Assembly: GCF_014701235.1 (NCBI RefSeq)
Contig: NZ_AP022873.1
Span: forward strand, 186,001-250,000
Source of the DNA: Dissulfurispira thermophila
GTDB taxonomy: Bacteria; Nitrospirota; Thermodesulfovibrionia; Thermodesulfovibrionales; Dissulfurispiraceae
Direction: 5' to 3'
DNA length: 64,000 nt
Shown here: in pieces, positions 38,745 through 57,592 of the stretch
How positions within the stretch are numbered: position 1 is the stretch's first letter
Layout of the letters: each line of letters begins with the position of its first letter
Position numbers and translations under genes: made by a program
The notes under the pieces: generated by a model
Told to the model about the DNA's origin: nothing
Databases searched by the model: none
What the model saw: only the letters and a program-made list of their open reading frames with translations

Positions 38745-38809
38745 TACATTAGCAGTTATTACAAATACGAAGGGGATAAGCAATCTGACATGAAAGGTCG
38801 TTCACACCT

Positions 38810-38838: not shown

Positions 38839-38992
38839 GTTGAGATGGGTGAGACCCCTCAATGTCATTGTGAGGCAAGGAAAGGTTGAGGTTAAGGTTA
38901 AGATTTAAAGACATGAAAAGAGTAAATTTTGCTTTTTATCCTCGATCTTAACCTTAACCTATCTTACATGCAATCTGTTAAACTTATAAGGT

Positions 38993-41104: not shown

Positions 41105-41118
41105 ATCCTTTCATTGAA

Positions 41119-41163
41119 AATTAACACATCTGTCATATTCTTGTAACATCAATCTTTTATGCT
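41119..41163 (+). promoter_or_regulatory. Pho-box-like promoter 1
   Basis: Heptamers AATTAAC (41119), CTGTCAT (41130) and TTGTAAC (41141) are spaced exactly 11 bp; CTGTCAT is the E. coli PhoB half-site. A -10-like TATGCT begins at 41158, 10 bp after the last heptamer. It precedes the small Cys-rich protein, the EAL/GGDEF gene and the GH1 gene. Confidence 0.75.
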
Positions 41164-41179
41164 AATTTTAAAAAGTTTA

Positions 41180-41275
41180 GGGTTTCACAAAATTAAAAAA
41201 TTCCCTCTCCCTTTTGGGGAGAGGGATAGGGTGAGGGGGGTAAGGATTACGAATTTCGTGAAACCCACAATTTTA
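41180..41275. repeat. Dispersed hairpin repeat inside the 5' untranslated region
   Basis: GGGTTTCACAAAATTAAAAA, hairpin CCCTCTCCC-TTTT-GGGGAGAGGG, a middle part, and an inverted end ACGAATTTCGTGAAACCC. The ends are inverted copies (GGGTTTCAC/GTGAAACCC), so the whole is bounded like a small mobile repeat. Related copies lie at 5650 and 14890. It sits between Pho-box promoter 1 and the gene at 41298. Confidence 0.78.
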
Positions 41276-41297
41276 AAAAGTTAAAAAGGAGGCTACC

Positions 41298-41516
41298 ATG
41301 AAATGCAAATATTTAAATCAATTCCGTCTTTCTGAGTTTGGATGGACTGTGGAATCATGCACAGCAAACGATAGGCCTTATGCACCGAGCATCTCAGAAT
41401 TGCATGATTACTGCAATGGCAATGAAGTCAAGAGATGTCCAGTCTGGCTGAAAAGAGAAGGCTTATATACTGCTTATAGTTCACCGTTCATTGTTGAAAT
41501 TGTTCAAGGTTCATAG
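41298..41516 (+). CDS. Small Cys-containing protein under Pho-box control
   Basis: A 72-residue protein: KCKYLNQFRLSEFGW, ESCTANDRPYAPS, ELHDYCNGNEVKRCP. The four Cys and Y/P spacing resemble small zinc-type proteins of unknown function common in anaerobes. Start ATG 41298 behind AAAAAGGAGG. The C-terminal residues are encoded by GTTCA-rich repeat words, so the tail is probably recruited. It is the first gene after Pho-box promoter 1. Confidence 0.7.
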   Translation: MKCKYLNQFRLSEFGWTVESCTANDRPYAPSISELHDYCNGNEVKRCPVWLKREGLYTAYSSPFIVEIVQGS

Positions 41517-41575
41517 TTCATCGTTGGTTGTTATTATGAACAATGAAGCATAAACTTTTTTCATGGAGGTGTATT

Positions 41576-43432
41576 ATGACTTCAAGGTCGAAATGGGATA
41601 TAACCATAGATGGCGAGGAGTGCATATCCGAAGATAGAAATAGTCCGGATAGGATAGATAGGCAGACCATACTCGAACTTCTTGACAATGATTCGCTCAC
41701 AACCCATTTTCAACCCATATTTTCTGCAAAAGACGGGTCAGTTTATGGTTATGAGGCATTGACGAGGATAAGGGAAAATAAAAATGACATAAACATCAGC
41801 GAGCTGTTTAAAGTGGCAATCCTCACAGATACCATCTCATCCCTCGATGTGAAGTGCAGGGGAAATGCCATAAGTTTAGGGTCTTTATTGGGCATTAATC
41901 ACAAAGGTTCGTACCTATTTATCAATGTATGTCCCGAGGCATTGATGGACCCGGCACACAGTGTTGGAATAACAGATGAACTGGCAGATAAATATGGCAT
42001 TTCGAAAGAAAAGATTGTTCTTGAGATAACAGAAGAAAGCGCCATTCACAATTACAAGCTATTCAACGAGGCAGTTGATTACTATAAAAAGAGAGACTAT
42101 AAGATAGCCATTGATGACTTCGGAGCGGGTTACGGCGGGCTGAAAATGCTCTCGGTGATAGAGCCCGACTTTGTAAAGATAGACCGCCATTTCATATCAA
42201 ATATAGATAAGGCAACTGTGAAGTTCAATCTCGTTGATTCTATTGCATCTGCTTGCCATAGGATCGGCATAAAGGTCATAGCCGAGGGAATAGAGCGGGA
42301 AGAAGAACTCAAAATAGTGATAAATATGGGGATAGATCTGCTTCAGGGGTATTATCTCTACAAGCCATCTCCAATCCTTAATGGTGACAAGGCAGAGATT
42401 TCTATATTCCACAGCAAAAAAGCAAGCTGTTGCTCAACAAGCGCTGAGCAATGCTTTATAGGAGATATTGCAGACAGGGTTGCTCCTATATTACCATCAG
42501 CACATCTTTTGGCTGCTTTTAGTAGATTTATCAAAAACTCTGAACTCAGGAGTCTGCCCGTTGTTGAGGATGAAAGGCTTGTAGGAATGCTGCACAGACA
42601 TAGGTTTTTAGAAAACAATGTGCTTGGTAAATATGGCTATGGCATGCACCTTAATGCTAAGAAATGCATAAGCAACATCATGGAACAGCCGTCACTGATG
42701 GTGGAAGCTAACGTCACACTGGAAGAAGTTGCACAGAGGATACAATCAAGGAAGTCCGAATTTCTTTATGACGACATATGCGTTACAAAGAATGGCAAGT
42801 ATTATGGAATAGTGCCAGTTCATATGCTCCTTGATGCAATAACAGAGAGGAGCCTCATCCTTGCACGTAATGCAAACCCCCTAACAGGTCTGCCGGGGAA
42901 TGATTCGATTCAGCGTGAAATAAATAAAAGGCTCTTGCAGAACATACACTGTGATGTCTGTTACATAGATATAGACAACTTTAAGCCATATAACGACACC
43001 TATGGTTTTGAAAAGGGTGATATGGTTATAAAGACGCTTGCTTGCATAATCAAGGAATCTGTGAGACCGTCTGATTTCGATTTTAGCTTTGTGGGACATA
43101 TAGGTGGTGATGACTTTATAGTGATTACTCCTCCGAAGATTTCAATACCTGTGTGCGAGAAAATAATTTCGAGCTTTGAATCAAATCTTCCGATATTACA
43201 TGGAATGGAAGATTACAATAGGGGATATTATGTTTCTAAAAATAGGAAAAATGAGGAAGAGACTTTTAGGCTATTGTCTCTCTCCATAGGAATAGTCAGC
43301 ACAGAGGTGTATAAAATAAAGTCCTATGCCCAGCTTGCATCAATAGCAACAGAGGTAAAAAAGGCTGCAAAGATGCAGTCTGCCTTAAATGGAACTTCAT
43401 CCATAGCAAGAGACAGAAGGCTGATGGGATGA
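41576..43432 (+). CDS. EAL-CBS-GGDEF cyclic-di-GMP signalling protein
   Basis: A 618-residue cytoplasmic protein. EAL phosphodiesterase domain (about residues 20-260): HFQPIF, YGYEALTR, NVCPEA, LEITEES, AIDDFGAGYGG, VKIDRHF and VIAEGIE...LLQGYYL are all present, so it is probably active. A CBS-like pair (about 270-430) follows with RSLPVVEDERLVGMLHR. The GGDEF domain reads GHIGGDDFIVI (GGDDF), with DIDNFKPYNDTYGFEKGD intact. ATG 41576 is chosen over 41543 because GGAGG lies at 41565-41569. Nucleotide sensing by CBS could set the balance between making and breaking c-di-GMP. It is likely cotranscribed with 41298 and GH1 from Pho-box promoter 1. Confidence 0.92.
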   Translation: MTSRSKWDITIDGEECISEDRNSPDRIDRQTILELLDNDSLTTHFQPIFSAKDGSVYGYEALTRIRENKNDINISELFKVAILTDTISSLDVKCRGNAISLGSLLGINHKGSYLFINVCPEALMDPAHSVGITDELADKYGISKEKIVLEITEESAIHNYKLFNEAVDYYKKRDYKIAIDDFGAGYGGLKMLSVIEPDFVKIDRHFISNIDKATVKFNLVDSIASACHRIGIKVIAEGIEREEELKIVINMGIDLLQGYYLYKPSPILNGDKAEISIFHSKKASCCSTSAEQCFIGDIADRVAPILPSAHLLAAFSRFIKNSELRSLPVVEDERLVGMLHRHRFLENNVLGKYGYGMHLNAKKCISNIMEQPSLMVEANVTLEEVAQRIQSRKSEFLYDDICVTKNGKYYGIVPVHMLLDAITERSLILARNANPLTGLPGNDSIQREINKRLLQNIHCDVCYIDIDNFKPYNDTYGFEKGDMVIKTLACIIKESVRPSDFDFSFVGHIGGDDFIVITPPKISIPVCEKIISSFESNLPILHGMEDYNRGYYVSKNRKNEEETFRLLSLSIGIVSTEVYKIKSYAQLASIATEVKKAAKMQSALNGTSSIARDRRLMG

Positions 43433-43498
43433 AAAATGTTTATAGTTTATGGTTTATAGTATAAGAGGGTCTTATTTTAAGGCATTGAAGGATGAGCT

Positions 43499-44767
43499 AT
43501 GAACAATGAACAAAATACTAAATTCCTCTGGGGTGTTGCCACATCTGCCTTTCAGCTTGAGGGTTCTCCTTATGCTGACTGGACATCATGGGATTCGATA
43601 TTAAATTCAAAGCCTGATGTCACAAACCATTACACCTTATATAAAGAAGACTTGAATTTATTGAAAGATCTCGGTGTGAATGCATATCGCTTCTCTATTG
43701 AATGGAGTAGGATACAACCAAGAGAAAACATATGGGATGAAGCCGCTGTTGCCCATTATCAGGACATAATAAATATCCTTCTTGAAAACAATATAGAGCC
43801 TATGGTCACAATACATCACTTCACGCATCCACTCTGGTTTATCAAAAAATACCCATGGCACAAAGAAGAGTCTATTGAAAAATTTTTGATCTTCGCAGAA
43901 AAGATAGTGTCTATATTAAAGGGCGTGCGATACTGGATTACTTTCAACGAGCCATATGTGCTTATCCTTGCCGGATATTTTGAGGGATGCACACCTCCCG
44001 GCATCAGGGATGTTTCACTGGGATTGAAGGCACTGGAGAATATTCTCATTAGCCACGGGAAAACTTATGATATTATCCATTCAAGAGTCACCGGTCCGAT
44101 GGCTAAGCCTATGGTAAGTGTTGCACACAATATGGCTGCTCTTGCGCCGTGGAACAAATGGAACCCTATGGACAGACTACTGTCCAGCATTGCAAAGCAC
44201 TTTTATAATCACTCCCTTTTAGATGTGTTTATCACTGGCATTCTCAGGGTGAAGTTTCCATTTAAGAAGGCAGTAGAAATTCATGTCCCTATAAAGGATA
44301 AGCTGGATTTCTTCGGTGTAAATTATTACACAAGAATACATATGAGGTTTAATCCTTTTAAAAAGATGGGTATTGAACTGAGACACAGGGATATTGACGG
44401 CTATGGACTTACTGATATGGGATGGGAGATACACCCTCATGGACTTGCAAAGGTGCTGAGATATGCATCAAAACTCAATGTGCCTTTGATAATAACTGAA
44501 AACGGCATTGCTACTCATGACTGTGAGAAGAAGATAAAGTTCATGAAACGTCATGTAGATGTCCTCGAAAGGTGCATCAAAAAAGGCATCGATGTCAGGG
44601 GATATTTCTACTGGTCCCTGATTGACAACTACGAATGGCTTCAAGGACTCGATGCGAGATTCGGTTTATATAAAGTGGATTTTGACACACTCAATCGCAA
44701 GCCTACCAATGCAGCAGCATATTATTCGTATTTGATTAAGAGCAGAGATTTTTATTCTCTAAAATAA
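43499..44767 (+). CDS. Glycoside hydrolase family 1 protein
   Basis: A 422-residue GH1 barrel. Motifs are FLWGVATSAFQLEGS, YRFSIEWSRIQP, ITFNEPYVLILAGYFEG (acid/base Glu in NEP), DFFGVNYYTR and LIITENGIA (nucleophile Glu in TENG), then GYFYWSLIDNYEW. There is no signal peptide, so it acts in the cytoplasm or at the membrane face. GH1 covers beta-glucosidases and beta-galactosidases; plant SFR2, a GH1 member, is a galactolipid transferase. Given the glycosyltransferase nearby, glycolipid metabolism is possible but only inferred. Its 3' end overlaps the hicA pseudogene on the other strand. Confidence 0.88.
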   Translation: MNNEQNTKFLWGVATSAFQLEGSPYADWTSWDSILNSKPDVTNHYTLYKEDLNLLKDLGVNAYRFSIEWSRIQPRENIWDEAAVAHYQDIINILLENNIEPMVTIHHFTHPLWFIKKYPWHKEESIEKFLIFAEKIVSILKGVRYWITFNEPYVLILAGYFEGCTPPGIRDVSLGLKALENILISHGKTYDIIHSRVTGPMAKPMVSVAHNMAALAPWNKWNPMDRLLSSIAKHFYNHSLLDVFITGILRVKFPFKKAVEIHVPIKDKLDFFGVNYYTRIHMRFNPFKKMGIELRHRDIDGYGLTDMGWEIHPHGLAKVLRYASKLNVPLIITENGIATHDCEKKIKFMKRHVDVLERCIKKGIDVRGYFYWSLIDNYEWLQGLDARFGLYKVDFDTLNRKPTNAAAYYSYLIKSRDFYSLK

Positions 44768-44968
44768 ATCCCTTAAACCTGCCTGCTTAAGAATGGATAA
44801 TACTGTCCCCTTTGGCAGATCCTTTTTGTGATAAGGGACAGTGACACGCCTTTTTGTCTGCAAATTGTAATAAACCTTATGACTTCATGTCTGATGGTCA
44901 AACTCAAAGCCGTTTTGTAGCAGAATCTTAATTACATCATCTGGTGTTAATATAGGCAGTTTAGGCAT
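44759..44968 (-). pseudogene. hicA: HicA toxin gene with an in-frame TGA
   Basis: The frame from ATG 44968 reads PKLPILTPDDVIKILLQNGFEFDHQT, then TGA at 44887-44885, then SHKVYYNLQTKRRVTVPYHKK...KGTVLSILKQAGL. It matches HicA over its full length. HicA has Gly-Ser-His here, so one base change (GGA to TGA) just before the catalytic His explains the stop. The start overlaps the hicB stop by 8 bp. The toxin is inactive unless the stop is read through or is a sequencing error. Confidence 0.86.
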
Positions 44969-45194
44969 ACTCTACATTTAATATACTTTCCAGTGTTCTG
45001 GAATCATCCACAATTTCCTCATCATGTTTTTTCATGCTTTCTAAATATGCTGCTATTGCATCCTCAGCCATTTTGACAGCATCTTCTACAGTGTCGCCAT
45101 AAGTTACACATCCTGGTAAAGACGGCACTAAAACAGTATATCCGCCCTCCGGTTCAGGTCTTAAAACAATCCTGAAAGAGAGTTTTGAATTCAT
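44961..45194 (-). CDS. hicB: HicB-family antitoxin
   Basis: A 77-residue protein with the HicB partial-RNaseH fold signature: FRIVLRPEPEGGYTVLVPSLPGCVTYGDTVEDAVKMAEDAI. ATG 45194 (or GTG 45197) lies behind AGAGGAGG. It lacks the C-terminal helix-turn-helix of larger HicB proteins. It precedes the broken hicA and is probably a surviving antitoxin without a working toxin. Confidence 0.88.
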   Translation of the reverse strand: MNSKLSFRIVLRPEPEGGYTVLVPSLPGCVTYGDTVEDAVKMAEDAIAAYLESMKKHDEEIVDDSRTLESILNVEYA

Positions 45195-45256
45195 CACTGC
45201 ACCTCCTCTTTGACAGTTGCTTTTATTTTACCACTTTTATATCCAATTGGATATAT

Positions 45257-45312
45257 TTTTAACAAAACTTTAATCCTCTTTTAATATCCTTGTAACAAGG
45301 AGTGTTTATCAT
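45257..45312 (+). promoter_or_regulatory. Pho-box-like promoter 2
   Basis: Heptamers TTTTAAC (45257), CTTTAAT (45268), TTTTAAT (45279) and TTGTAAC (45290) are spaced exactly 11 bp. TATCAT at 45307-45312 starts 10 bp after the last one and matches five of six -10 bases. It drives the PHP gene and probably the genes to 49908. Confidence 0.82.
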
Positions 45313-45355
45313 GTTAATAGCATGTTTGGAAAATATGTTGATAAATGGTTAATAG

Positions 45356-46045
45356 ATGTTACTGTGTGACTTTCATATCCACACAAAATACTCTGACGGT
45401 TCTGTGGAGTTGAGAAAGACAATTGATCTTTACGGTCAAGCGGGATTTGATGTAATAGCAATAACAGATCATGTGGTCAATGGTGACAACTCTATCGGAA
45501 GGCTCGCCCATCGTTTTAGATTATCTGTGACAGCAGAGAATTTTGATGAATACATATCCAATATAAAATACGAGGCAGAGAGGGCATGGAATAAATATGA
45601 AATGCTCGTAGTACCAGGCGTGGAAATCAGTAAAAACTACATTAATCCTGAAAAATCAGCACATGTGCTTATCATCGATATAAAGGAGTTTATCCCCGCA
45701 TGTATGAACTATGAAAAGATATTCCTTGAGGCAAGACAACAAGACGCCCTTATAGTTGCTTGCCATCCGCACCACATGTCTGATATGAGTAGGGATACCT
45801 TATTTCTTTGGAACAACAGAGGCAAATATGCAAAATACATAGACGCATGGGAGATTGCTAATAGAGATGATGTGTTTAATGTAATCAGTCTTGAGAAATA
45901 CCCTTATATAGCAAACAGTGATTTTCATAAGGCAAGGCACATCTATTCGTGGAAGACGCTTTTAAACTGCGAAAAGAATATTGACTCAATTAAAAAATGC
46001 ATAAGGCATAACAAAGGAGTGGCAATAACACTATTTAGGAATTAA
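45356..46045 (+). CDS. PHP-domain metallo-phosphoesterase
   Basis: A 229-residue PHP-domain protein: CDFHIHTKYSDGS (HxH plus Asp), AITDHVVNG, VPGVEIS, VACHPHH and NSDFHKARH provide the usual trinuclear metal ligands. Family members hydrolyse phosphoesters (for example nucleoside 3',5'-bisphosphates, histidinol phosphate). It has no signal peptide. The ATG has no clear ribosome-binding site. It is 43 bp behind the -10 of Pho-box promoter 2, so a phosphate-scavenging role is likely; the substrate is unknown. Confidence 0.87.
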   Translation: MLLCDFHIHTKYSDGSVELRKTIDLYGQAGFDVIAITDHVVNGDNSIGRLAHRFRLSVTAENFDEYISNIKYEAERAWNKYEMLVVPGVEISKNYINPEKSAHVLIIDIKEFIPACMNYEKIFLEARQQDALIVACHPHHMSDMSRDTLFLWNNRGKYAKYIDAWEIANRDDVFNVISLEKYPYIANSDFHKARHIYSWKTLLNCEKNIDSIKKCIRHNKGVAITLFRN

Positions 46046-46053
46046 CAAATAAA

Positions 46054-46262
46054 TGTCATTGCGAGGGCGAAGTCTGAAGCAATCTCAGAGACGAGATTCC
46101 TCGCGGAGCCTGCCCTGAGCGGAACTACGAGATTCTTCGCTACGCTCAGAATGACAAAAAGCAAAGGGCTCAGACACCGTCCTGAGTGAAACGAAGGAAT
46201 GACAAAAAGCGAAGGGCTCGCAATGGCAGGTTGGAAAAGGTCGGAATGACAGATGGAACAAA
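46054..46262. repeat. GTCATTGCGAGG-type extragenic repeat
   Basis: TGTCATTGCGAGGGCGAAGT, GAAGCAATCTC, GAGATTCCTCGCGGAGCCTG, GAGATTCTTCGCTACGCTCA and GAATGACAAAAAGC. This is a widely distributed bacterial extragenic repeat made of inverted parts. It fills the gap between the PHP and glycosyltransferase genes; no other feature is seen there. Confidence 0.82.
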
Positions 46263-46296
46263 GAGGTAATAACAGATGAGATAAGGAGGAGGAACT

Positions 46297-47553
46297 GTGG
46301 AAATATTCTATGTTTTAGTAGGTTTGACAGTTTTAGGGCTTATAGCATACGGACTACAGATATGGGCAGTGCGATCCACTCTTAAAAAAGGAGATAAGGG
46401 GTTAAGAGGTTTAGAGGATAAGAATAAGTCGATTTCTCAACTTCCCACTATTTCTATCCTCAAGCCTCTCAAAGGACTCGATGACAATTTATTCGACAAT
46501 CTCGCAAGCTTCTGCACACAGGATTATCCAAAATACGAAATCATATTTTCACTTCAGGATCACAATGATCCGGCCTACAAGGTGGCAAGAAAAATAAAAG
46601 ATAAATATCCTGAAAGAGACATTTCAATCATAGTTGAAAGGTGCGATGATGGGTTAAATCCAAAGGTCAATAACTTAATCCCCGCGTATAAGGCATCAAA
46701 ATATCAGTACATACTCATCAGCGATAGCAATGTCATGGTTGATAATAATTACCTCAGAGGAATCGTTAAGCACATGGATGACCCAGATGTTGGCCTTGTG
46801 AGCAATGTTATAAAAGGTATTGGAGGTAGCTCCATTGGCTCAATATTCGAAAACCTTCACTTGAATTCCTTTATTATAGGGAGTGTATGCTTTTTGGATA
46901 GATTTCTGAAAATGCCATGCGTAATCGGCAAATCAATGCTGATGAGGAAGAAAGACCTCGAGGCAATTGGCGGATTCAGGGCTGTAAAGGATGTGCTTGC
47001 AGAAGATTACATCATTGGAAAGAAGATACACAAGAGGGGTAAGAAGGTGGTGCTGTCAAACCATATAATAAAGAATGTGAATGAATACTGGAATATTAAG
47101 AGATTTCTAAACAGACATACCAGATGGGGAAAACTCAGGTGGAGGCTCGGAGGGATTAAATACTTTTCCGAATTGCTCGGTAATCCGGTCTTCATGTCAT
47201 GTCTGGCTATATTACTATGGGAGGTGTCGAGAATAACAATTTCTTTTGCACTCATTGTCAGTTTTGTGAAGATACTTGGTGATTACTACCTCAGCACTAT
47301 AATGAGAAGAAATGAATTCGAAAAAATAGAATCATCACATTCCATAAACTCCATATCGCCATTTTATTATCTGTTGTCACCAATTAAAGACTTGGTCATA
47401 GGGCTTGTCTGGTTTGTGCCAATATTAAGCAATACGGTTGTATGGAGAGGCAATAGATATATAATTGGCAAGGAAACGCTTCTTAAACCTTGTTCTGAAG
47501 CAAATGCATGGAGATACAGGTTTGTTGAGGCTATAAAAACAAAATTCGCATAA
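46297..47553 (+). CDS. GT21-like glycosyltransferase (ceramide glucosyltransferase/HpnI-type)
   Basis: A 418-residue membrane glycosyltransferase. It has an N-terminal membrane segment, then a GT-A domain with PTISILKPLKGLDDNLFDNL, SDSNVMVDNNYL (D-x-D-like), LAEDYIIGKK (catalytic Asp region) and the (Q/R)xxRW motif NRHTRWGKLRW. C-terminal membrane segments follow (VFMSCLAILLWEVS and others). GT21 enzymes make glucosylceramide, and relatives glycosylate diacylglycerol or hopanoids. It starts at GTG 46297 behind AAGGAGGAGG. Its place between PHP and alkaline phosphatase genes suggests phosphate-free membrane lipid synthesis during phosphate starvation (inference). Confidence 0.86.
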   Translation: MEIFYVLVGLTVLGLIAYGLQIWAVRSTLKKGDKGLRGLEDKNKSISQLPTISILKPLKGLDDNLFDNLASFCTQDYPKYEIIFSLQDHNDPAYKVARKIKDKYPERDISIIVERCDDGLNPKVNNLIPAYKASKYQYILISDSNVMVDNNYLRGIVKHMDDPDVGLVSNVIKGIGGSSIGSIFENLHLNSFIIGSVCFLDRFLKMPCVIGKSMLMRKKDLEAIGGFRAVKDVLAEDYIIGKKIHKRGKKVVLSNHIIKNVNEYWNIKRFLNRHTRWGKLRWRLGGIKYFSELLGNPVFMSCLAILLWEVSRITISFALIVSFVKILGDYYLSTIMRRNEFEKIESSHSINSISPFYYLLSPIKDLVIGLVWFVPILSNTVVWRGNRYIIGKETLLKPCSEANAWRYRFVEAIKTKFA

Positions 47554-47570
47554 ACGGGAGGCAAATAATT

Positions 47571-49160
47571 ATGCAGGAATCTAAAAATAAAAATGGAATA
47601 ACCAGGAGAGATGTTTTAAAGGCTGTAGGGATGGGCGCAATTTATTCAATGCTTCCTTATCATGCCTTAAGCAGTGAAAAGGATGATTTCAAAAGGGCTA
47701 ATGGACGGGGGATTATATTCATTGTTGGAGACGGAATGCCTCTCGGAGTTATAAGGGCAATGCATGAGATAAAGACAAGGGTTAATGGGGATGCCGGCAC
47801 ATTTTTTTATAACCGGTTCAATGACAAAAATACACTGCTTTCATTCATGGGGACAAGTAGCCTTTCAAGTATAGTAACTGATTCTGCTCCCGCATCTGTA
47901 GCATGGGCTACTGGCTCAAAGACAGCAAATAGAATGCTTTCTGTTCTGCCAGACGGGAGGCATCTTAAGACTATAGCAGAGCTGGCAAAGGAAAATGGCT
48001 ATGCCTGCGGATTCGTCACTACAACAAGAGTTACCCACGCAACGCCTGCCGCATGGGTGTCGCACAGCGCACATAGAGATAGGGAAGATGACATTGCCCT
48101 TGATTATTTGAAACTCATGCCTGATGTGATACTCGGAGGCGGAAGCAAGCATTTTGATTCCACAAAGAGAAAAGACAGTAGGGACCTATTTAAGGAATTT
48201 GAAACTGCCGGATATGATGTAACAAGGGATAGAAATGGGCTTATATCTCAACAAAAGAGCGAATCCAAAAGACCTCTGCTGGGGATCTTCAACCAGTCTC
48301 ATCTAAGCTACTATGTTGACAGGATTAATAATACGGAATTGGGTGGTAGTCAGCCAACGCTTGCTGAAATGACATTAGTTGCACTAAAAAGGCTCTCAAC
48401 AAATTCCAAAGGTTTTATTCTCCAGATTGAAGCTGGCAGAATTGATCATGCAAATCACTCTAATGATGCGTGGGCAGCAATAATGGACACAAATGAATTA
48501 GATATAACTCTCGGAGTTGTTGAGCAATATCTAAAAGCTAATCCTGATACCCTCGTAATACTCACATCAGACCATGGTAATTCTGGATGGGGGATAAACG
48601 GGACGGGACCTGATTATAATGATGCAACAGAAGCCCTCAAAAAATATACGGGGATAAAGGCGTCTTTTGAGGTTATAAGCAAAAAACTAAAAGGCAAACA
48701 ACCCAATGAGATAAAAGATATTGTTGAGTATTACACATCTTTTAAGATTTATGATAATGAAGCTGCCATGATATACGAGAGCATACAGCCGGGCTATAAG
48801 CCATACCCTTCTGATTTTGTTTATCAGCCGGACGCTACCCTGGGGAAGATATTGTCACACAGTATTTATGAGAAAAACGAAAAGGGGAAGACTAAACTAC
48901 CGGCTGCTTTAAGACGTGGCAATGTAGGTTTTACATCCACCAATCATACAGGAGAGGACCAAATAGTGCTTGCCTATGGAGGCACTGATAGGTTAAATAT
49001 GAGACGGTATGTTGACAATACCGATCTATTCGGAGTTATGTGCGATTATTTGGGCATCAAGCATAGGAACCCTTCAATGAGTGAGAATGAGGCTAAGCCC
49101 TTAGTTAAAACAGCGTCGTGGGATGAGTGGCTCAGGCACATGGAGCTTCATATAGCATAG
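47571..49160 (+). CDS. phoA: Alkaline phosphatase, Tat-exported
   Basis: A 529-residue phosphatase. The twin-arginine signal GITRRDVLKAVGMGAIYSML opens the protein. Then GIIFIVGDGMPLG (metal site), TDSAPASVAWATGSKT (nucleophile Ser), QIEAGRIDHANHSND, LTSDHGN and TNHTGED supply the metal and catalytic residues of the PhoA superfamily. It frees phosphate from organic esters outside the cytoplasm. It lies 17 bp after the glycosyltransferase gene, in the transcript from Pho-box promoter 2. Confidence 0.93.
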   Translation: MQESKNKNGITRRDVLKAVGMGAIYSMLPYHALSSEKDDFKRANGRGIIFIVGDGMPLGVIRAMHEIKTRVNGDAGTFFYNRFNDKNTLLSFMGTSSLSSIVTDSAPASVAWATGSKTANRMLSVLPDGRHLKTIAELAKENGYACGFVTTTRVTHATPAAWVSHSAHRDREDDIALDYLKLMPDVILGGGSKHFDSTKRKDSRDLFKEFETAGYDVTRDRNGLISQQKSESKRPLLGIFNQSHLSYYVDRINNTELGGSQPTLAEMTLVALKRLSTNSKGFILQIEAGRIDHANHSNDAWAAIMDTNELDITLGVVEQYLKANPDTLVILTSDHGNSGWGINGTGPDYNDATEALKKYTGIKASFEVISKKLKGKQPNEIKDIVEYYTSFKIYDNEAAMIYESIQPGYKPYPSDFVYQPDATLGKILSHSIYEKNEKGKTKLPAALRRGNVGFTSTNHTGEDQIVLAYGGTDRLNMRRYVDNTDLFGVMCDYLGIKHRNPSMSENEAKPLVKTASWDEWLRHMELHIA

Positions 49161-49191
49161 ACAACATTTAGATTTATAAGGAGAATTGGAA

Positions 49192-49908
49192 ATGAAAATA
49201 GCTATACTTGGAGACATTCACGGAAATATTGAGGCGCTAAGGACTGCATATGATGCGGCAGTGTCTAATAATGTTGAAAAAATATATCATCTCGGAGACC
49301 TCGGCGGCTATGCGCCCTTTGTAAATGAGGTGGTTGATTTTCTTATTGAACACCAAATCGAAGGGGTTCAGGGCAATTATGACGATGCAGTTGCAAATGG
49401 CAAAGAGCACTGTGGATGCAAATATGAAGACCCGGTTCAGGCAGAGATGGCGACTATGTCATTTGAATGGACAAAAGGACATGCAACTCAGAAGAGCAAG
49501 GACTATATGAAGTGCCTCCCTTTTGATATAGAGTTTTCAGTGCATGACAAAAAGGTGAAGATATTTCATGCCACTCCGCTTAAAAATAACCTTTACTGGC
49601 ACAATGACAGGGATGAAGACTTCTTTCTCCACATGGCAAGAAAGGCGGATGCAGACATCATGATTTACGGACATACGCATATCCCGTACAGAAAAAACAT
49701 CGGCAATAAGGTATTTATAAATGCCGGCAGTGTTGGAAAACCGAAGGATGGAGACGCGAGGACATGTGCCTGCATTGCCGATATTACTCCTGATAATGTG
49801 AAAACAGAGTTTCTAAGAATACCATATGATGTTGAGAAAGTAGCCTCTGCCATCATAGAAAGCGGCATACCTTCATATTTTGCGGAGAGGCTGCGTCAGG
49901 GTAAATAA
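49192..49908 (+). CDS. Calcineurin-like metallophosphoesterase
   Basis: A 238-residue phosphoesterase: ILGDIHGNIEAL, YHLGDLGGYAPF, QGNYDDAV, FHATPL and IYGHTHIPY contain all five metal-binding motifs. It resembles the YfcE/MJ0936-like group. No signal peptide is visible, so it is cytoplasmic. ATG 49192 is preferred over TTG 49186 because of AAGGAG at 49178-49183. It is the last gene of the presumed Pho operon starting at 45356 and overlaps a convergent small gene. Confidence 0.87.
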   Translation: MKIAILGDIHGNIEALRTAYDAAVSNNVEKIYHLGDLGGYAPFVNEVVDFLIEHQIEGVQGNYDDAVANGKEHCGCKYEDPVQAEMATMSFEWTKGHATQKSKDYMKCLPFDIEFSVHDKKVKIFHATPLKNNLYWHNDRDEDFFLHMARKADADIMIYGHTHIPYRKNIGNKVFINAGSVGKPKDGDARTCACIADITPDNVKTEFLRIPYDVEKVASAIIESGIPSYFAERLRQGK

Positions 49909-50143
49909 TAAAATTCAATATCTCCCTTAATATCTTCTCCGCCTGTTCTGATGTCTTGCCTTTTTTAGGCCCTTCTGCTATGCCTACAAAGGAAAAATAA
50001 TCGTCTTTTTCTTTCCTTTCTTCTCTGAGATAGCCTGATAGGGCCTCACGGATAATCTCGGACATCTTTCTCTTAGAAGACTCAGCAGCCCTTTTTAACA
50101 GAAGAAATTGCTTTTCTTCAAGATAAACCATGGTTTTTCTCAT
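49853..50143 (-). CDS. Ribbon-helix-helix antitoxin-like protein, possibly truncated
   Basis: A 96-residue frame. Residues 1-45 (MRKTMVYLEEKQFLLLKRAAE and MSEIIREALSGYL) are a ribbon-helix-helix domain. GPKKGKTSEQAEKILREIL follows as in antitoxins of PIN-type toxins. The tail (NFIIYPDAASPQNMKVCRFL) is read through the 3' end of the opposite gene (56-bp overlap) and is unlike the family, so the original end and the toxin gene were probably lost. ATG 50143 has no clear ribosome-binding site. Confidence 0.68.
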   Translation of the reverse strand: MRKTMVYLEEKQFLLLKRAAESSKRKMSEIIREALSGYLREERKEKDDYFSFVGIAEGPKKGKTSEQAEKILREILNFIIYPDAASPQNMKVCRFL

Positions 50144-50216
50144 CCTTATTTGCCCTCCCTTTGCAAAAATTGTATGGCATATATGTCAATCCCCCTTAAA
50201 AAATCCTGAAACCAAA

Positions 50217-50266
50217 ATTTAACCTCTATTTCATTATCTTGTAACATTTCTCTGTTAAGCTATAGT
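50217..50266 (+). promoter_or_regulatory. Pho-box-like promoter 3
   Basis: Heptamers ATTTAAC (50217), ATTTCAT (50228), TTGTAAC (50239) and a weaker CTCTGTT (50250) are spaced 11 bp. A -10-like TATAGT lies at 50261-50266. It precedes the 55-residue Cys-rich protein. Confidence 0.65.
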
Positions 50267-50299
50267 GGTAAGTCGGATTTTTAAAAAGGAGGGAAAATT

Positions 50300-50467
50300 A
50301 TGTGCCCTAACTTTAACAATGGCATTTGCGAGGTAGTTGGTATCGAGCCAGAGGAAATAGGGTGTATCGAGATATGCGCTTGCTACCGCAATAATATGTG
50401 GAAAAATTGTAAGGTCTATATGTTACAGTTTTTTATTTATGGTGATAAAAACCTTGCAGCAGCTTAA
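50300..50467 (+). CDS. Small Cys-rich protein under Pho-box control
   Basis: A 55-residue protein from ATG 50300 behind AAAAAGGAGGG: MCPNFNNGICEVVGIEP, GCIEICACYRNNMWKNC, then a hydrophobic tail. Six Cys resemble small metal-binding proteins seen near pst genes and elsewhere in anaerobes; the function is unknown. It has its own Pho-box-like promoter and its own terminator, so it may be a single-gene unit. Confidence 0.72.
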   Translation: MCPNFNNGICEVVGIEPEEIGCIEICACYRNNMWKNCKVYMLQFFIYGDKNLAAA

Positions 50468-50555
50468 CCCCCCTCATTTCAAGGGCCCTTGTGAATAATG
50501 CAAGGGCCTCTTTTTTTTGAGACTTTTGATACCCTTGAAATACACATGGCAAATC
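50468..50555 (+). terminator. Terminator-like repeat, copy 2
   Basis: CCCCCCTCATTTCAA, stem AGGGCCCTTG-TGAATAATG-CAAGGGCCT, a T8 run, then 37 bases identical to copy 1 at 30157-30246, ending ACATGGCAAATC. It terminates the 55-residue gene. Confidence 0.85.
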
Positions 50556-50566
50556 ATGGTTGACGA

Positions 50567-50622
50567 TTGTAACGCAAATTTAACATTCCTTTAATATTAG
50601 ATTAACTCAGTTAGTTTATAAT
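50567..50622 (+). promoter_or_regulatory. Pho-box-like promoter 4 (pst operon)
   Basis: Heptamers TTGTAAC (50567), ATTTAAC (50578), CTTTAAT (50589) and GATTAAC (50600) are spaced exactly 11 bp, and a perfect TATAAT (50617-50622) starts 10 bp after the last. This geometry is that of PhoB-activated promoters. The start of pstS is 210 bp downstream. Confidence 0.88.
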
Positions 50623-50638
50623 TGGAGAGATAAAGAGG

Positions 50639-50810
50639 CTGTTCAATAACAAATAGGGTTTTAAGTTATCATTTGCGATGTCTTGATTTTCAAGGTTCAG
50701 AGAGTTTTTGAACAGATTCTGATAAAGTTGGGGGTGATTAATATGTAACATGGCTTAAAGTGACAAGGTCCATCAAAGTTGTAACAATCAAACCCTATCA
50801 TAGATAGGGT
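50639..50810 (+). other. Structured pstS leader
   Basis: CTGTTCAA near 50639 can pair with TTGAACAG at 50716-50723. ACCCTATC-ATA-GATAGGGT (50792-50810) forms an 8-bp hairpin ending just before the ribosome-binding site AAGGAGG. No open frame is seen. A role in translation control of pstS is possible but untested. Confidence 0.4.
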
Positions 50811-50831
50811 ATAATTAAGGAGGATGAAAGT

Positions 50832-51845
50832 ATGAAGAGGATTTTAGGTTTAATATTAGCACTAACTGTTGTGTTGTCATTTTCTATGGCAAACGCCGAG
50901 GAGACATTGAACGGCGCTGGGGCAACATTCCCGTATCCATTATATTCTGCATGGGCATATGAGTATCACAAAACCACAGGTGTGAAGCTCAACTATCAAT
51001 CAATAGGCTCAGGCGGAGGGGTCAGACAGGTTGTGAATAGGACAGTTGACTTTGGTGCATCTGACGATGCCCTTGAACCTAAAGAGATAGAAAAGGATAA
51101 GCTCCTTCAGTGGCCGCAGGTTATAGGTGGTGAGGTTCTGGCGATAAATGTTTCTGGTATTAAATCTGAGGAAATGGTCTTAGATTCTGATAGCGTATGC
51201 AAGATATTTCTCGGTGAAGTCAAATACTGGGATGATAAAGAGATAAAGCAACTGAATCCTTCCCTTAATCTGCCACATAAGGAGATTACTGTTGTTCACA
51301 GGTCTGATGGATCAGGAACCACCGCAGTTTTTACACATTATCTATCAGAGGCATGTCCTGCCTGGAAAAGCAAGGTTGGTGAGGGCAAATCTGTGAAATG
51401 GCCTGTTGGCATAGGAGGGAAAGGCAATGAGGGTGTTGCCAATTATGTAAAGAGGACACCATTTTCCATAGGCTATGTAGAATTTGCATATGCAAAACAG
51501 AACAAACTCACTTACACGCTTCTTAAAAATCCTGCGGGCAAAGTGATTAGACCGACCCTTGAAACCTTTGCTGAGGCTGCATCAGCGGGTAATTATGACC
51601 CCAAAAAACACTTCTATACATGGGTTACAAATGTAAAAAGCCCTAATGCATGGCCAATTGTTGCTGCTACAAATATCCTCGTACCAAAAGAAAGGGTTGG
51701 AGAAAATAAAAAGGTTGTTAAGTTTTTTGACTGGGCATTTTCTAAAAAGGCAGACGAGATAGCACAAAGTTTGGTTTATGCACCACTTCCAGAAGCATTA
51801 AAAAATAAGATAAGGGCATACTGGAAGGCAAACGGAATATATTAA
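50832..51845 (+). CDS. pstS: Phosphate ABC transporter substrate-binding protein
   Basis: A 337-residue secreted protein. The signal peptide is residues 1-22 (LGLILALTVVLSFSMANA). The phosphate-site signatures are LNGAGATFPYPLYSAW, YQSIGSGGGVRQV, DFGASDDALEP and VHRSDGSGTTAVFTHYL. ATG 50832 behind TAAGGAGG. It is the first gene of pstSCAB-phoU. Confidence 0.97.
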   Translation: MKRILGLILALTVVLSFSMANAEETLNGAGATFPYPLYSAWAYEYHKTTGVKLNYQSIGSGGGVRQVVNRTVDFGASDDALEPKEIEKDKLLQWPQVIGGEVLAINVSGIKSEEMVLDSDSVCKIFLGEVKYWDDKEIKQLNPSLNLPHKEITVVHRSDGSGTTAVFTHYLSEACPAWKSKVGEGKSVKWPVGIGGKGNEGVANYVKRTPFSIGYVEFAYAKQNKLTYTLLKNPAGKVIRPTLETFAEAASAGNYDPKKHFYTWVTNVKSPNAWPIVAATNILVPKERVGENKKVVKFFDWAFSKKADEIAQSLVYAPLPEALKNKIRAYWKANGIY

Positions 51846-51946
51846 TAGTCGATAGGCAAAAGGCTATAGGCGATAGGCAAGAGGATAGTATATAATATAT
51901 GCCTACAACCTATAGCCTATAATTTAATTAAGGAGTTATTATCGTT

Positions 51947-52888
51947 GTGATTTTATTTAAAAAGAAGGATCCCGTCGATTTGATTTTTTCATTCATTACA
52001 GGCATTGCAGCGATTTCTGTTGTCCTGATCATTGTCGGCACATTATATGTGCTTTTTAAAGAATCTTCACTATCAATCGAAAGATTTGGCTTTTTAAAGT
52101 TTATTACATCATTAGATTGGGACCCCGTAAGGGAATCCTTTGGAGCTGCAGCAGCCCTTTATGGAACACTTGTGACAACAGCCTTAGCCCTCATTATTGC
52201 AATACCAGTTGCTATCGGGATTGCAATATTTGTTACAGAGGTTGCTCCCAATTTCCTGAAGGGACCTGTTGGTGTTGCTATAGAGCTTTTAGCAGCCATA
52301 CCAAGCATCATTTACGGCATGTGGGGGCTCTTTACACTCGCACCAATTATGTCAAAATATATAGAACCCTTTTTGCAAAAGACCATCGGTAAATTACCGT
52401 TATTTAACATACTCTTTGAGGGCACTCCACTCGGTATAGACCTTTTGACAGCAAGCATGATACTCGGAATAATGATAATTCCTTTTACTGCAAGCATCTC
52501 AAGGGATGCCTTTAATCTCACACCATCTGTGGTGAAGGAGTCTGCCTATGCAGTTGGTGCAACAAAGTGGGAGGTGGTAAGGGATGTAGTGCTTCCCTAT
52601 TCAAAATTAGGTGTCTTTGGTGGCATTGTTATCTCTCTTGGAAGGGCGCTGGGTGAGACAATGGCAGTTGCCTTTGTCCTTGGAAATAATAATCAGATAA
52701 CCACATCCCTACTCGATGCAGCAGCAACAGTTACTGTGAAACTCGCAAATGAGTTTACAGAGGCAGACAAAGATATTTATCTTTCATCATTATATTATTT
52801 GGCACTTCTGCTTTTTATGGCGAGCTTTATTGTGCTGTCTATTGCAAAGTTCCTTTTATTAAAGGCAGAAAATAAGCTGAAGGCTTAA
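51947..52888 (+). CDS. pstC: Phosphate ABC transporter permease PstC
   Basis: A 313-residue permease with six membrane segments; AALYGTLVTTALALIIAIPVAIGIAIFVTE and PSVVKESAYAVGATKWEVVRDVVLP (EAA loop, in parts) are typical. It starts at GTG 51947 behind AAGGAG. Repeat words of the GGCAAAAGGCTATAGGCG type separate it from pstS by 100 bp. Confidence 0.95.
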   Translation: MILFKKKDPVDLIFSFITGIAAISVVLIIVGTLYVLFKESSLSIERFGFLKFITSLDWDPVRESFGAAAALYGTLVTTALALIIAIPVAIGIAIFVTEVAPNFLKGPVGVAIELLAAIPSIIYGMWGLFTLAPIMSKYIEPFLQKTIGKLPLFNILFEGTPLGIDLLTASMILGIMIIPFTASISRDAFNLTPSVVKESAYAVGATKWEVVRDVVLPYSKLGVFGGIVISLGRALGETMAVAFVLGNNNQITTSLLDAAATVTVKLANEFTEADKDIYLSSLYYLALLLFMASFIVLSIAKFLLLKAENKLKA

Positions 52889-52918
52889 GGAAGGGCAGAG
52901 GACAGAATATGACAGAAT

Positions 52919-53779
52919 ATGGAGGATAGAAGGCAGATGAACCGCGAGAAATTCAGGATTATACAGAGCCGCATTGCTTTTATTGTTAGCACTCTTACTG
53001 CCATGTTTGGTATTTTCTGGCTTATATTCATTATCGGCGATGTCCTTGTTCATGGCATAGGTGCACTGAATATAAATTTATTCATAAAAGACCCCGCCCC
53101 TGCGGGTGTTGAGGGAGGGGGCCTCAGAAATGCCTTTGTGGGTCATTTGATGATAACCTTCTTTGCAACATTGATTGGTGTCCCTGTGGGTGTGCTTGGC
53201 GGGACATTCCTTGCAGAATATGCAAGAGGCAAAAGGATCGCACGATTCATAAGCATCCTTTCTGACATAATGGTCAGCGTTCCAGCCATTGTGGTTGGCA
53301 CTTTTGTATATGCCATAATAGTGAAACCAATTGGTCATTTCAGCGGTTGGGCTGGGGCTGTTGCACTGGCAATGATAATGATTCCTGTGGTGGTGAGGAC
53401 AACAGAGAATATGCTTTCACTTGTATCCTGGACAGTCAGAGAGGCTGCCTTTGCATTAGGAGCTCCTTATTATAAGGTCATCATACAGGTTGTTTACAGA
53501 GGGGCAGCCACGGGTATCTTGACAGGCATACTTCTTTCTATTGCGAGGGTTACAGGTGAGGCAGCACCACTTTTGTTCACCTCCTTTAATAACTCATTCT
53601 TTTCTGCTAATATGAATGAACCAGTAGCTTCGCTTACTGTATCGATATTTCAATATGCCATGGGTCCTTATGAAAGCTGGCACGCCCAGGCATGGGCAGC
53701 AGCATTAATGATTACTGTATTTATTCTTTTCATCACAATCATTGGCAGACTCATCATAAAATGGAGGTACAAAAAGTGA
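52919..53779 (+). CDS. pstA: Phosphate ABC transporter permease PstA
   Basis: A 286-residue permease: [30 protein letters not shown] and [25 protein letters not shown] (in parts). Start at ATG 52919; ATG 52937 (MNREKF) is an alternative. Its first codons fall in a repeat-like stretch (CAGAGGACAG...GAAGGCAG). It overlaps pstB by 4 bp. Confidence 0.95.
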
Positions 53780-54540
53780 CAGAGCATATAGAGATTGAGG
53801 TTAGAAATCTCAACTTTTATTATACTGGCAATATCCACGCCCTGAAGCAGATAAACCTCTCTGCTTATAGGCATAATGTTATAGCACTCATAGGTCCTTC
53901 GGGTTGTGGCAAAACAACGCTCCTGAGGTGTTTTAACAGAATGCATGACCTTTATCCTAAAAACAGATATGAAGGCGAAATAATCTTTCAGGGTGCAAAT
54001 ATCCTTTCTAACAATATTGACATCATTGACCTCAGGAGCCGGATTGGAATGGTCTTTCAGAAACCCACTCCATTCCCTATGACTATATTTGACAATATTG
54101 CATATGGTCTCAGGCTGAAGGGCGTTAAAAATAGGTCTGAACTCTCTGAAAGGGTAGAAAGGGCACTCAAAAATGCAGCACTCTGGGGTGAGGTAAAGGA
54201 CAAACTAAATGTCAGTGCCTATGAGCTTTCGGGTGGACAACAGCAAAGACTTGTTATCGCAAGGGCATTGGCTGTTGAGCCTGAAGTCCTCCTTTTTGAT
54301 GAACCCACCTCAGCCCTTGATCCCATATCCACTGGCAAGATAGAAGAACTCATAGTTCAATTAAAGAGCAAAGTTACGATAATTATCGTCACCCACAACA
54401 TGCAGCAAGCAGCCCGAATCTCTGACTGGACAGGGTTTATGATGCTCGGGGAATTGATTGAATTTGACAAAACAGATAAGATATTCACAGCCCCCTCTGA
54501 AAAGCTTACAGAGGACTATATCACAGGGAGGTTTGGATAA
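53776..54540 (+). CDS. pstB: Phosphate ABC transporter ATPase
   Basis: A 254-residue ATPase: Walker [21 protein letters not shown], signature [15 protein letters not shown], Walker [14 protein letters not shown] and the switch His in [13 protein letters not shown] 53776 is chosen because GGAGG (53763-53767) lies 8 bp upstream, and GTGA overlaps the pstA stop. ATG 53761 is in frame but has no ribosome-binding site. Confidence 0.96.
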
Positions 54541-55202
54541 TGACCAGGTTTGATGAAGAATTGACCAGTTTAAAAGAGATGATACTAAAAATGGGAGCAT
54601 TAGTTGAAAGTTCTATAAAAGATTCTGTTAGATCTCTGGTAGAAAGAGACGATGCACTTGCAAGAACTATTATAGAAAGAGACCATGAGATAAATGCCCT
54701 TGATGTGCAGATAGATGAGGAATGCATAAGGCTCATAGCGCTGATGCAGCCTATGGCTGGAGACTTGAGATTTCTGACAACGGCAATGAAGATAACCACA
54801 GACCTTGAAAGAATGGGAGACAATGCTGTAAATATAGCAGAAAGGGCTTTAGAGCTAAACAGAGAGCCAATCCTCAAGCCTTATATAGACATCCCTCACA
54901 TGAGCCAGATAGCCCAGGGGATGACAAGAGATGCACTTGATGCATTTGTAAAAAAAGATAAAAGACTTGCAATGGATGTAATCATGAGGGATGATGAGGT
55001 AGATGACCTTAAATATGGAATACTTGAAGAATTAATATCCTATATGATCAGGGATCCAAATACAGTATCAAGGGCAATGAAGATTAGCTTTGTTGCGCAG
55101 TATCTGGAGAGGATCGCTGATCACGCCACTAATATTGCTGAGATGGTCATATATCTTGTAGCTGGAAAGATCATAAGGCATATGGCTTTGCCTAAAGAGT
55201 AG
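54540..55202 (+). CDS. phoU: Phosphate signalling regulator PhoU
   Basis: A 220-residue all-helical protein made of two PhoU repeats: [16 protein letters not shown]...[28 protein letters not shown] and [19 protein letters not shown] (metal-binding E/DxxxD), with [14 protein letters not shown]. It links PstSCAB to the PhoR sensor, which is not in the window. It overlaps pstB by 1 bp. Its 3' end overlaps the cheB remnant on the other strand. Confidence 0.95.
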
Positions 55203-55745
55203 ATAGCAAAGATATTATTTCTTTTAGTGATGCAACTCTGTCCACACCACCAAGCTCTACTGCCCTTTTGGGCATTCCAAATACAACAGAAGATGCCTCA
55301 TCCTGCGCAATGGTATAAGCACCAGCCTTTTTCATCTCGAGCAATCCTCGAGCTCCATCTTCGCCCATGCCTGTCAAGATGATTCCCACGGCGTTTTTGC
55401 CAGCGTATTTGGCAACTGACCTAAACATTACATCAACTGACGGCCTTACAAAATTAACCATTGGTCCGTCAACAATATCTACATAATACATCGCTCCATT
55501 TCTCCTTATCTCCATATGCTTATTGCCGGGAGCTATCAAGACTGTTCCTCTTAAAATGCGGTCTCCGGTTTCTGCCTCTTTTACATCAAGCCTCGACATA
55601 GCATTCAGCCTCTCTGCAAATGATCGTGTAAATACAGGCGGCATGTGTTGAACTATCACTATTCCATGTGTTGATTCTGGCAGAGCGGTTATTATCTCAG
55701 TAATTGCTTGAGTTCCTCCAGTTGAAGCTCCTATAAGGTGGACAG
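55192..55745 (-). pseudogene. CheB methylesterase domain, N-terminally truncated
   Basis: Frame open from 55745 (after an in-frame stop) to 55192: [14 protein letters not shown] (catalytic Ser in STGGT), [26 protein letters not shown] (catalytic His) and [14 protein letters not shown] (catalytic Asp) make a complete CheB catalytic domain. The receiver domain and linker are missing, and the sequence before 55745 is word-like repeat. A GTG at 55659 could start translation but would omit the catalytic Ser. No other chemotaxis gene is nearby. Confidence 0.82.
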
Positions 55746-55935
55746 ACTTTTATTTCACCTATTAACCTCTCCACCTATTACCCCCTTCACTGATTCAAAG
55801 AACAGGAGCCAGAACACAGACTTTCAGAAGAAAAATGGGCTTAAGGCTGTAGGCTGAAGAATATTAAAACTACCTCAAAAAACTTCAGCCTAAAGCCTAA
55901 CGCCTTCAGCCTATCTTCTGTCATCTGTTCTCTTT
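55746..55935. repeat. Word-like repeat block between cheB and IS110 remnants
   Basis: CACCTATTAACC/CCACCTATTACC words, CTTCACTGATTCAAAGAACAG, GGCTTAAGGCTGTAGGCTGA, CTTCAGCCTAAAGCCTAACG and TCTTCTGTCATCTGTTCTCT. These are the same words as in the blocks at 5700, 14760 and 30600. No gene is seen. Confidence 0.68.
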
Positions 55936-55939
55936 ATGA

Positions 55940-57305: not shown

Positions 57306-57327
57306 GCACCTATTTTTATACAAATGA
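56224..57327 (+). pseudogene. IS110-family transposase, C-terminally truncated
   Basis: A 367-codon frame from ATG 56224 behind AAAGGAG. FYLGIDVSKKAARYFI, GIEATGSFWEN and AKKAKTDDIDALVIAQLL belong to the DEDD domain. LLSIKGVGDKTLAAIISYLG and VGFYPKIYESGQSRRDNKISKRG belong to the C-terminal domain with the catalytic Ser (SGQS). After KEMRTLYH the usual last 40-50 residues are replaced by MHLFLYK read from the neighbour, so it is probably inactive. Confidence 0.8.
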
Positions 57328-57592
57328 CTGCTGTTTCTATATCGCTAAAAGCAGTAACAATTATAATAGGGATATCAGGGTCTATTTTTTTGAGTTCCTG
57401 TAATACTTCTAAACCATCCATGCCTGGCATTTTAAGGTCAAGAAGTACTGCCAGAGGAGTTTCTTTTTTAAACAATTCTATTGCTTCTTTTCCATTGGAT
57501 GCCTCTATTGGTAAAAATCCCTCACCCTTAAGCACCTCACAGAAGGATAACCTTACGCCCCTGTCATCATCTACAACAAGTATCTTCTTCAT
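57300..57592 (-). pseudogene. Response regulator receiver domain, truncated by the IS110 element
   Basis: The frame from ATG 57592 reads KKILVVDDDRGVRLSFCEVLKGEGF, AVLLDLKMPGMDGLEVLQEL (phospho-acceptor Asp) and IPIIIVTAFSDIETAVICIKIGAY, an NtrC-type receiver. The expected DFIEKP and output domain are missing: from about 57303 the frame runs into the IS110 transposase DNA. Only the receiver survives. Its ATG overlaps the upstream gene by 4 bp. Confidence 0.83.

Follow-up and report, generated by a model that had tools for sequence, protein, structure and literature searches.

A predicted PhoB regulon in a 14-kb island of Dissulfurispira thermophila, with a PHP phosphoesterase and a GT21 glycosyltransferase as candidate partners in glycolipid synthesis

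A 64,000-nt window of the Dissulfurispira thermophila genome (bases 186001-250000 of a single-contig genome of 2.37 Mb, with a G+C content of about 40%) contains an island of phosphate-related genes in which four arrays of short direct repeats precede four sets of genes. Do these arrays belong to one regulator, and what response would the genes behind them provide? In Escherichia coli and other bacteria, promoters of the Pho regulon carry 11-bp direct repeats, each composed of 7 conserved and 4 variable bases with CTGTCAT-like heptamers, and this box takes the place of the -35 element (PMC4415409). We propose, with a probability of roughly two in three, that the window holds the core PhoB regulon in one 14-kb island, in which a PHP-domain phosphoesterase would release diacylglycerol for a GT21 glycosyltransferase, so that glycolipids replace phospholipids. 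The assignment of the four boxes to a Pho regulon, with predicted PhoB binding and induction, is very likely in our judgement. This type of regulon and the remodelling of lipids at low phosphate are already known; the content of the island and the PHP-GT21 pairing are new.

Direct reading bore out a first-pass annotation of this DNA in that the heptamers are phased at exactly 11 bp at 41119, 45257, 50217 and 50567 (Table 1). The annotation had also reported a -10-like hexamer 10 bp after a heptamer at three sites; these three stand, but the count was short, since TAAGCT at 50256 had been overlooked. The hexamer begins exactly 10 bp past the last heptamer at all four sites, and no separate -35 element is present. 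The same spacing was found in 51 of 59 sites of other loci, forming a sharp peak. When TKTMAY at three phases plus TANNNT was used as the search pattern, the window gave 10 matches with at most three mismatches, compared with 0.79 expected from shuffles, and nine of the ten belong to the four sites. Throughout the genome, the consensus with at most one mismatch was matched by the four island sites and C1:689531 only (five strict matches versus none in the control). Equal matches at random intergenic sites, the outcome that the annotation had set against its own reading, were not seen at strict stringency, the fifth strict match being in the coding sequence of gatA. Loose matches with three mismatches occurred in the genome at about the control rate, and only strict matches were therefore counted.

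To build a weight matrix, 50 boxes located before PHP genes were used, all from species other than that of the window. With this matrix the four sites rank first in the window, the next position reaching 9.1 bits and the best position of the reversed window 7.9 bits. Three of the four sites precede non-PHP genes, so the prediction of the matrix held across both species and promoters. The genome-wide search relied on the consensus pattern, and the matrix was applied to the window and to selected loci and loose matches. Several other candidates were rejected. The match at C1:689531 is coding DNA inside gatA on the opposite strand, with near-identical matches in two relatives (G005 and G012). At C1:412996 the match lies between genes, but it faces away from the elongation factor G gene downstream of it and scores 13.7 bits, and the remaining loose matches examined score no more than 7.5 bits. 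A possible fifth site near 50779 (TTGTAAC, with TATCAT 10 bp on) has one heptamer only and is unsupported by the matrix. No Rfam match to a structured RNA was found in 38000-58000. The annotation had expected additional boxes before other phosphate genes and phoBR; this expectation failed, as the consensus scan gave no credible box elsewhere in the genome and neither consensus nor matrix gave one in the phoBR region. With no further credible box elsewhere in the genome, the detectable regulon is essentially the island.

The box is conserved among relatives. In 30 genomes of the order Thermodesulfovibrionales, the strict pattern gave 81 matches versus 2 for the reversed pattern used as control, with at least one match in 22 of the 30 genomes; the total of 81 includes a few instances of the match in the gatA coding sequence. 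Most of these boxes stand before orthologues of the island genes, and do so across many genera of the order. Scoring of the corresponding clusters with the matrix returned 85 boxes of at least 15 bits versus none in reversed sequence, and they stand before the set of Cys1 (a small four-cysteine protein), EAL-CBS-GGDEF and GH1 genes, before PHP-GT21, before Cys2, and before pstS or pstC. Other genes preceded by boxes in the relatives encode a PsiE-family protein, a chemotaxis receptor, an OlsF-type acyltransferase, a PstS-like/OmpA protein and a porin. Three OmpR-type regulators are encoded in the D. thermophila genome, and PhoB is the best NCBIfam model for one of them and for neither of the other two. 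The adjacent kinase has PnpS and PhoR as best models, below the equivalog cut-off. The gene order is aroB-phoB-phoR, and this PhoB-PhoR pair is located 1.8 Mb from the island. The presence of the pair, together with like boxes before orthologues in many genera, supports the earlier proposal of one regulon wider than the classic Pho genes.

The conserved core of the island is the PHP-GT21 pair. Public genomes were scanned with a PHP alignment and 80 loci were returned, some of them on the same contigs as the relatives above, so that the two sets overlap. Nitrospirota predominate, many labelled Thermodesulfovibrionales, and Desulfurella acetivorans, Deltaproteobacteria and Verrucomicrobia are also represented. 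Synteny and box counts were restricted to the 68 loci with PHP identity above 65%. GT21 is the next gene after PHP on the same strand in 66 of these 68, with a median gap of 24 bp, and a box scoring at least 18 of 21 lies upstream of PHP in 62, versus 4 for the reversed pattern. Thermodesulfovibrio, which has cultured members, shows the order box, PHP, GT21 (L157 and L158). In Desulfurella, the GH1, PHP, GT21, PstS, EAL-CBS-GGDEF and PhoA genes are kept together. The putative metal ligands of PHP (H7, H9, D14, H39, E90, H137, H139, D189 and H191) are invariant in 12 orthologues, and the protein has no evident signal peptide. The closest solved structure to the GT21 protein is ceramide glucosyltransferase, and the two align at the DxD-type (ISDSN/ICDSG), ED (AEDY/AEDY) and (Q/R)xxRW-type (RHTRW/RMIRW) motifs. 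Pgt, a characterised bacterial GT21 enzyme with a predicted Pho box, glycosylates diacylglycerol in preference to ceramide (PMC3972451), and the known glycoglycerolipid synthases belong to families GT4, GT21 and GT28 (PMC8231724). The partner gene of GT21 encodes the PHP protein, not a calcineurin-type metallophosphoesterase; the YfcE-type gene at 49186 is separate.

Further links to phosphorus-free lipids come from other lineages. In Verrucomicrobia, the same PHP domain (47-50% identity) forms the C-terminal part of a fusion whose N-terminal part carries MGDG_synth and GT28-type domains, with diglucosyl-diacylglycerol synthase as the nearest models. This PHP domain was found in 7 of 195 sampled Verrucomicrobia genomes, always in long open frames. 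A triple box precedes the fusion, scoring 18 of 21 in L199, L200, L206, L207 and L208 and, more weakly, 17 of 21 in L204 and L218, versus 12-15 for reversed controls (a tally that leaves out L213 and L215). PHP, GT21 and an OlsF-type acyltransferase gene are consecutive on one strand in three Nitrospirota loci (L162, L164 and L181). G002, a genome of the same genus as the window, has an OlsF homologue (418 bits versus a cut-off of 620) behind a separate box that scores 24.5 bits; no OlsF-type gene was found in the window's own genome. OlsF makes ornithine lipids, which accompany monoglycosyldiacylglycerol (MGDG) at low phosphate in Desulfovibrio (PMC5193443). G002 also encodes, behind a Pho box, an 811-residue protein (L131:15490-17925) with an N-terminal CehA/McbA-like PHP region, of another PHP subfamily and with a weak score, joined to a GT4 domain, which would be a weaker fourth link. 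The near-invariant adjacency to GT21 and the fusion to GT28 in another phylum imply a shared substrate or product. Since the partners GT21, GT28 and OlsF all make phosphorus-free lipids, we infer that PHP supplies diacylglycerol, in place of PlcP. From these gene links, a lipid role of the PHP-GT21 pair is reasonably likely, and diacylglycerol release by PHP itself has about an even chance of being correct.

The first-pass annotation named no functional theme; that of the island is probably phosphate uptake and salvage together with membrane-lipid replacement, from phospholipids to sugar lipids. Under phosphate limitation, PhoR would phosphorylate PhoB, and phosphorylated PhoB would bind head to tail along the direct repeats of 11 bp. 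Standing in for the -35 element at a distance of 10 bp from the -10 element, the last repeat would recruit sigma-70 RNA polymerase. The four promoters would drive expression of pst, PhoA and the phosphoesterases, the cyclic-di-GMP enzyme, the two four-cysteine proteins and PHP-GT21. Pst would import phosphate, and PhoA and the phosphoesterases would release it. At the inner face of the membrane, PHP would act on phosphatidate or phospholipid, yielding diacylglycerol and phosphate or a phospho-headgroup, and GT21 would glycosylate the released diacylglycerol. Glycolipids would then replace phospholipids and free their phosphate, with PHP taking the part played by PlcP in marine Proteobacteria.

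Other explanations address either the boxes or the enzymes. Chance matches in AT-rich DNA, to which the base composition of the genome and the control-level loose matches might point, are already excluded by the strict counts in this genome and over the 30 relatives and by the ranking with the cross-species matrix. The boxes might instead belong to one of the two further OmpR-type regulators, as many members of this family bind direct repeats. This is very improbable, since the boxes track pst, PhoA, PhoU and PsiE-family genes, the heptamers are like the CTGTCAT of E. coli (PMC4415409), and PhoB is the best model for one regulator only.

Two readings accept the PhoB regulon and question the lipid pathway. 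PHP could be a soluble salvage phosphatase for nucleotides or sugar phosphates, tied to GT21 only by shared usefulness at low phosphate. Its weak NCBIfam matches to nucleotide and histidinol-phosphate phosphatases and the presence of PhoA and the YfcE-type phosphoesterase in the same unit agree with such a role, but the adjacency to GT21 and, in another phylum, the fusion to GT28, a lipid glycosyltransferase, make it unlikely. GT21 could also modify an envelope glycan or a minor lipid in the manner of HpnI, outside bulk lipid replacement. HpnI is indeed its best NCBIfam model, but at 247 bits the match falls short of the cut-off of 310, and the OlsF and GT28 associations argue against this role, which we consider somewhat less likely still than the salvage phosphatase. 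A hopanoid role in particular was rejected, both on this score and as no PF13243 match to a squalene-hopene cyclase was found in the genome. The proposal of PhoB-controlled glycolipid synthesis through PHP and GT21 is itself weakened by several points. The PhoB candidate scores 262.6 bits, below the PhoB equivalog cut-off of 296.2; the best model for GT21 is likewise below its cut-off and assigns neither sugar nor acceptor; the fusion loci L214, L216 and L217 have no upstream box; and the Desulfurella cluster has the genes with no box of the window's kind. To our knowledge, no member of this PHP subfamily has been characterised, and PHP enzymes take many phosphoesters.

Comparison with known systems places the island between several of them. 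It resembles the E. coli PhoB-PhoR regulon in repeat layout, heptamers, -35 replacement and the targets pst, phoU and phoA (PMC4415409). It differs in its consensus T[GT]T[AC]A[CT], usually with at least three repeats, in its compactness, in a phoBR locus without a box, and in the addition of PHP-GT21, EAL-CBS-GGDEF, GH1 and four-cysteine proteins. As in remodelling by PlcP with Agt or Pgt (PMC4796936, PMC3972451), a metal phosphoesterase and a diacylglycerol glycosyltransferase, both predicted in the island, stand behind a Pho box; the phosphoesterase, however, is of the PHP type rather than a calcineurin-type PlcP, and the glycosyltransferase is GT21, as is Pgt, rather than a GT4 Agt. At low phosphate, Desulfovibrio alaskensis G20 forms MGDG, glycuronic acid diacylglycerol (GADG) and ornithine lipids via Agt and OlsF (PMC5193443). 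This anaerobe likewise combines Pst, glycolipid and ornithine-lipid genes, with OlsF-type genes in the islands of the relatives, but it uses another glycosyltransferase family, and the window's genome is without an OlsF-type gene. PHP matches TM0559 of Thermotoga maritima (PDB 2anu) over its full length with 248 bits and belongs to the same subfamily; unlike TM0559, a structure without assigned function, the island gene has links to lipid glycosyltransferases and to Pho boxes. Within the openly licensed literature, we found no paper on the Pho regulon of this Nitrospirota group and none that pairs lipid glycosyltransferases with a PHP protein.

There is about an even chance that TM0559-type PHP proteins are phosphohydrolases of a new class, which act on phospholipid or phosphatidate and supply glycolipid synthases with diacylglycerol when phosphate is low. 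Their partners are unrelated glycosyltransferases: a neighbouring GT21 gene in Nitrospirota, Desulfurella and Deltaproteobacteria, a fused GT28 in Verrucomicrobia and possibly, in a single Nitrospirota genome, a GT4 fused to a PHP region of another subfamily. This would provide a PlcP-independent lipid switch in anaerobic and subsurface bacteria. If PHP is the diacylglycerol-releasing partner, it offers another possible genetic source and marker for phosphorus-free glycolipids in anoxic and subsurface settings, and the TM0559 family, whose structure is known, gains a testable function. The well-supported matrix and the conserved target list make the phosphate response of this Nitrospirota group predictable from sequence.

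The genes behind the four boxes were the sets listed in the first-pass annotation and are given in Table 1.

Table 1. Predicted Pho boxes and genes of the island (positions in the window; box scores from the cross-species matrix).
Feature	Position	Strand	Description
Pho box 1	41119-41163	+	Heptamers 41119 AATTAAC, 41130 CTGTCAT, 41141 TTGTAAC; -10 TATGCT 41158-41163; upstream of Cys1; 30.4 bits
Cys1	41298-41516	+	72 aa; four conserved cysteines C3, C21, C39, C47; no known family
EAL-CBS-GGDEF cyclic-di-GMP enzyme	41576-43432	+	Pfam EAL 181 bits, GGDEF 59, CBS 49
GH1 glycosidase, beta-glucosidase-like	43499-44767	+	Pfam 272 bits; catalytic motifs TFNEP, ITENG; closest solved structures beta-glucosidases
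Pho box 2	45257-45312	+	Heptamers 45257 TTTTAAC, 45268 CTTTAAT, 45279 TTTTAAT, 45290 TTGTAAC; -10 TATCAT 45307-45312; upstream of PHP; 36.2 bits
PHP-domain phosphoesterase, TM0559 type	45356-46045	+	PF02811 31.3 bits (cut-off 26.4)
GT21 glycosyltransferase (ceramide-glucosyltransferase/Pgt/HpnI family)	46297-47553	+	Pfam PF13506 162 bits; the genome's only GT21
PhoA-type alkaline phosphatase	47571-49160	+	Pfam 251 bits; Tat-like signal
YfcE/Metallophos_2-type phosphoesterase	49186-49908	+	Same unit as PHP, GT21 and PhoA
Pho box 3	50217-50261	+	Heptamers 50217 ATTTAAC, 50228 ATTTCAT, 50239 TTGTAAC; -10 TAAGCT 50256-50261; upstream of Cys2; 30.0 bits
Cys2	50300-50467	+	55 aa; aligns with Cys1 at four cysteines
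Pho box 4	50567-50622	+	Heptamers 50567 TTGTAAC, 50578 ATTTAAC, 50589 CTTTAAT, 50600 GATTAAC; -10 TATAAT 50617-50622; upstream of pstS; 23.8 bits
pstS	50832-51845	+	390 bits, above NCBIfam cut-off
pstC	51947-52888	+	Position and identity to relatives' pst operons
pstA	52919-53779	+	Position and identity to relatives' pst operons
pstB	53692-54540 (open reading frame)	+	Position and identity to relatives' pst operons
phoU	54540-55202	+	PhoU profile match

The small four-cysteine proteins are a recurrent and unexplained member of the regulon. Cys1 and Cys2 share their cysteine pattern, and neither has a family in Pfam or NCBIfam. Relatives of Cys1 are present in 15 of the 30 genomes, many beside Pho boxes, and relatives of Cys2 lie behind boxes in G001, G002, G003 and G005. 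The AlphaFold model of Cys1 has a mean predicted local distance difference test score (pLDDT) of 51 and is not interpretable; metal binding by the two proteins would be a guess. The reading frame of the EAL-CBS-GGDEF gene opens at 41543, and the start at 41576 is better placed for the GGAGGTG ribosome site. By analogy with RapA of Pseudomonas fluorescens, an EAL-domain cyclic-di-GMP enzyme that is expressed when phosphate is low (PMC3032545), the predicted island enzyme probably alters cyclic-di-GMP and surface attachment; unlike RapA, it has an EAL-CBS-GGDEF architecture, and its gene stands in line between those for Cys1 and GH1. Turnover of the glycolipid, or of some other glucoside, may be the task of GH1, which is the least supported step of the scheme.

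Two leaders in the island are longer than their counterparts in G002. Between the -10 element of box 1 and the start of Cys1 lies a repeat resembling a miniature inverted-repeat transposable element (41163-41283), with 32-nt inverted ends GGGTTTCAC...GTGAAACCC and about 30 substantial copies genome-wide; the Cys1 leader of G002 is about 80 bp shorter. The pstS leader (50623-50831) is about 210 nt long, versus about 26 nt in G002; other parts of the genome repeat it in fragments only, so it may represent a degenerate insertion. In the gaps that separate the Pho units, two small genes on the minus strand (44961-45197 and 49853-50143) resemble, by eye, HicB-type and CopG-like antitoxins. A CheB methylesterase-domain open reading frame (55192-55659, minus strand) is convergent with phoU and overlaps its end; its match to the profile begins only at position 29, and the gene may therefore be truncated or have another start.

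Additional genes stand behind Pho boxes in the relatives. In G002, a PsiE-family (phosphate-starvation-inducible) protein has its own box (L093:6350-6769). Genes of chemotaxis-receptor size lie right behind boxes in two same-genus genomes (L089:16994-18700 and L092:15579-17285), the one in L089 being a confirmed methyl-accepting chemotaxis protein, which suggests taxis at low phosphate. L089 also encodes, right behind a box, a 230-aa protein with no Pfam or NCBIfam match (L089:1722-2414), and genes equal to it in length, a match in length only, stand behind boxes in L094, L096 and L105.

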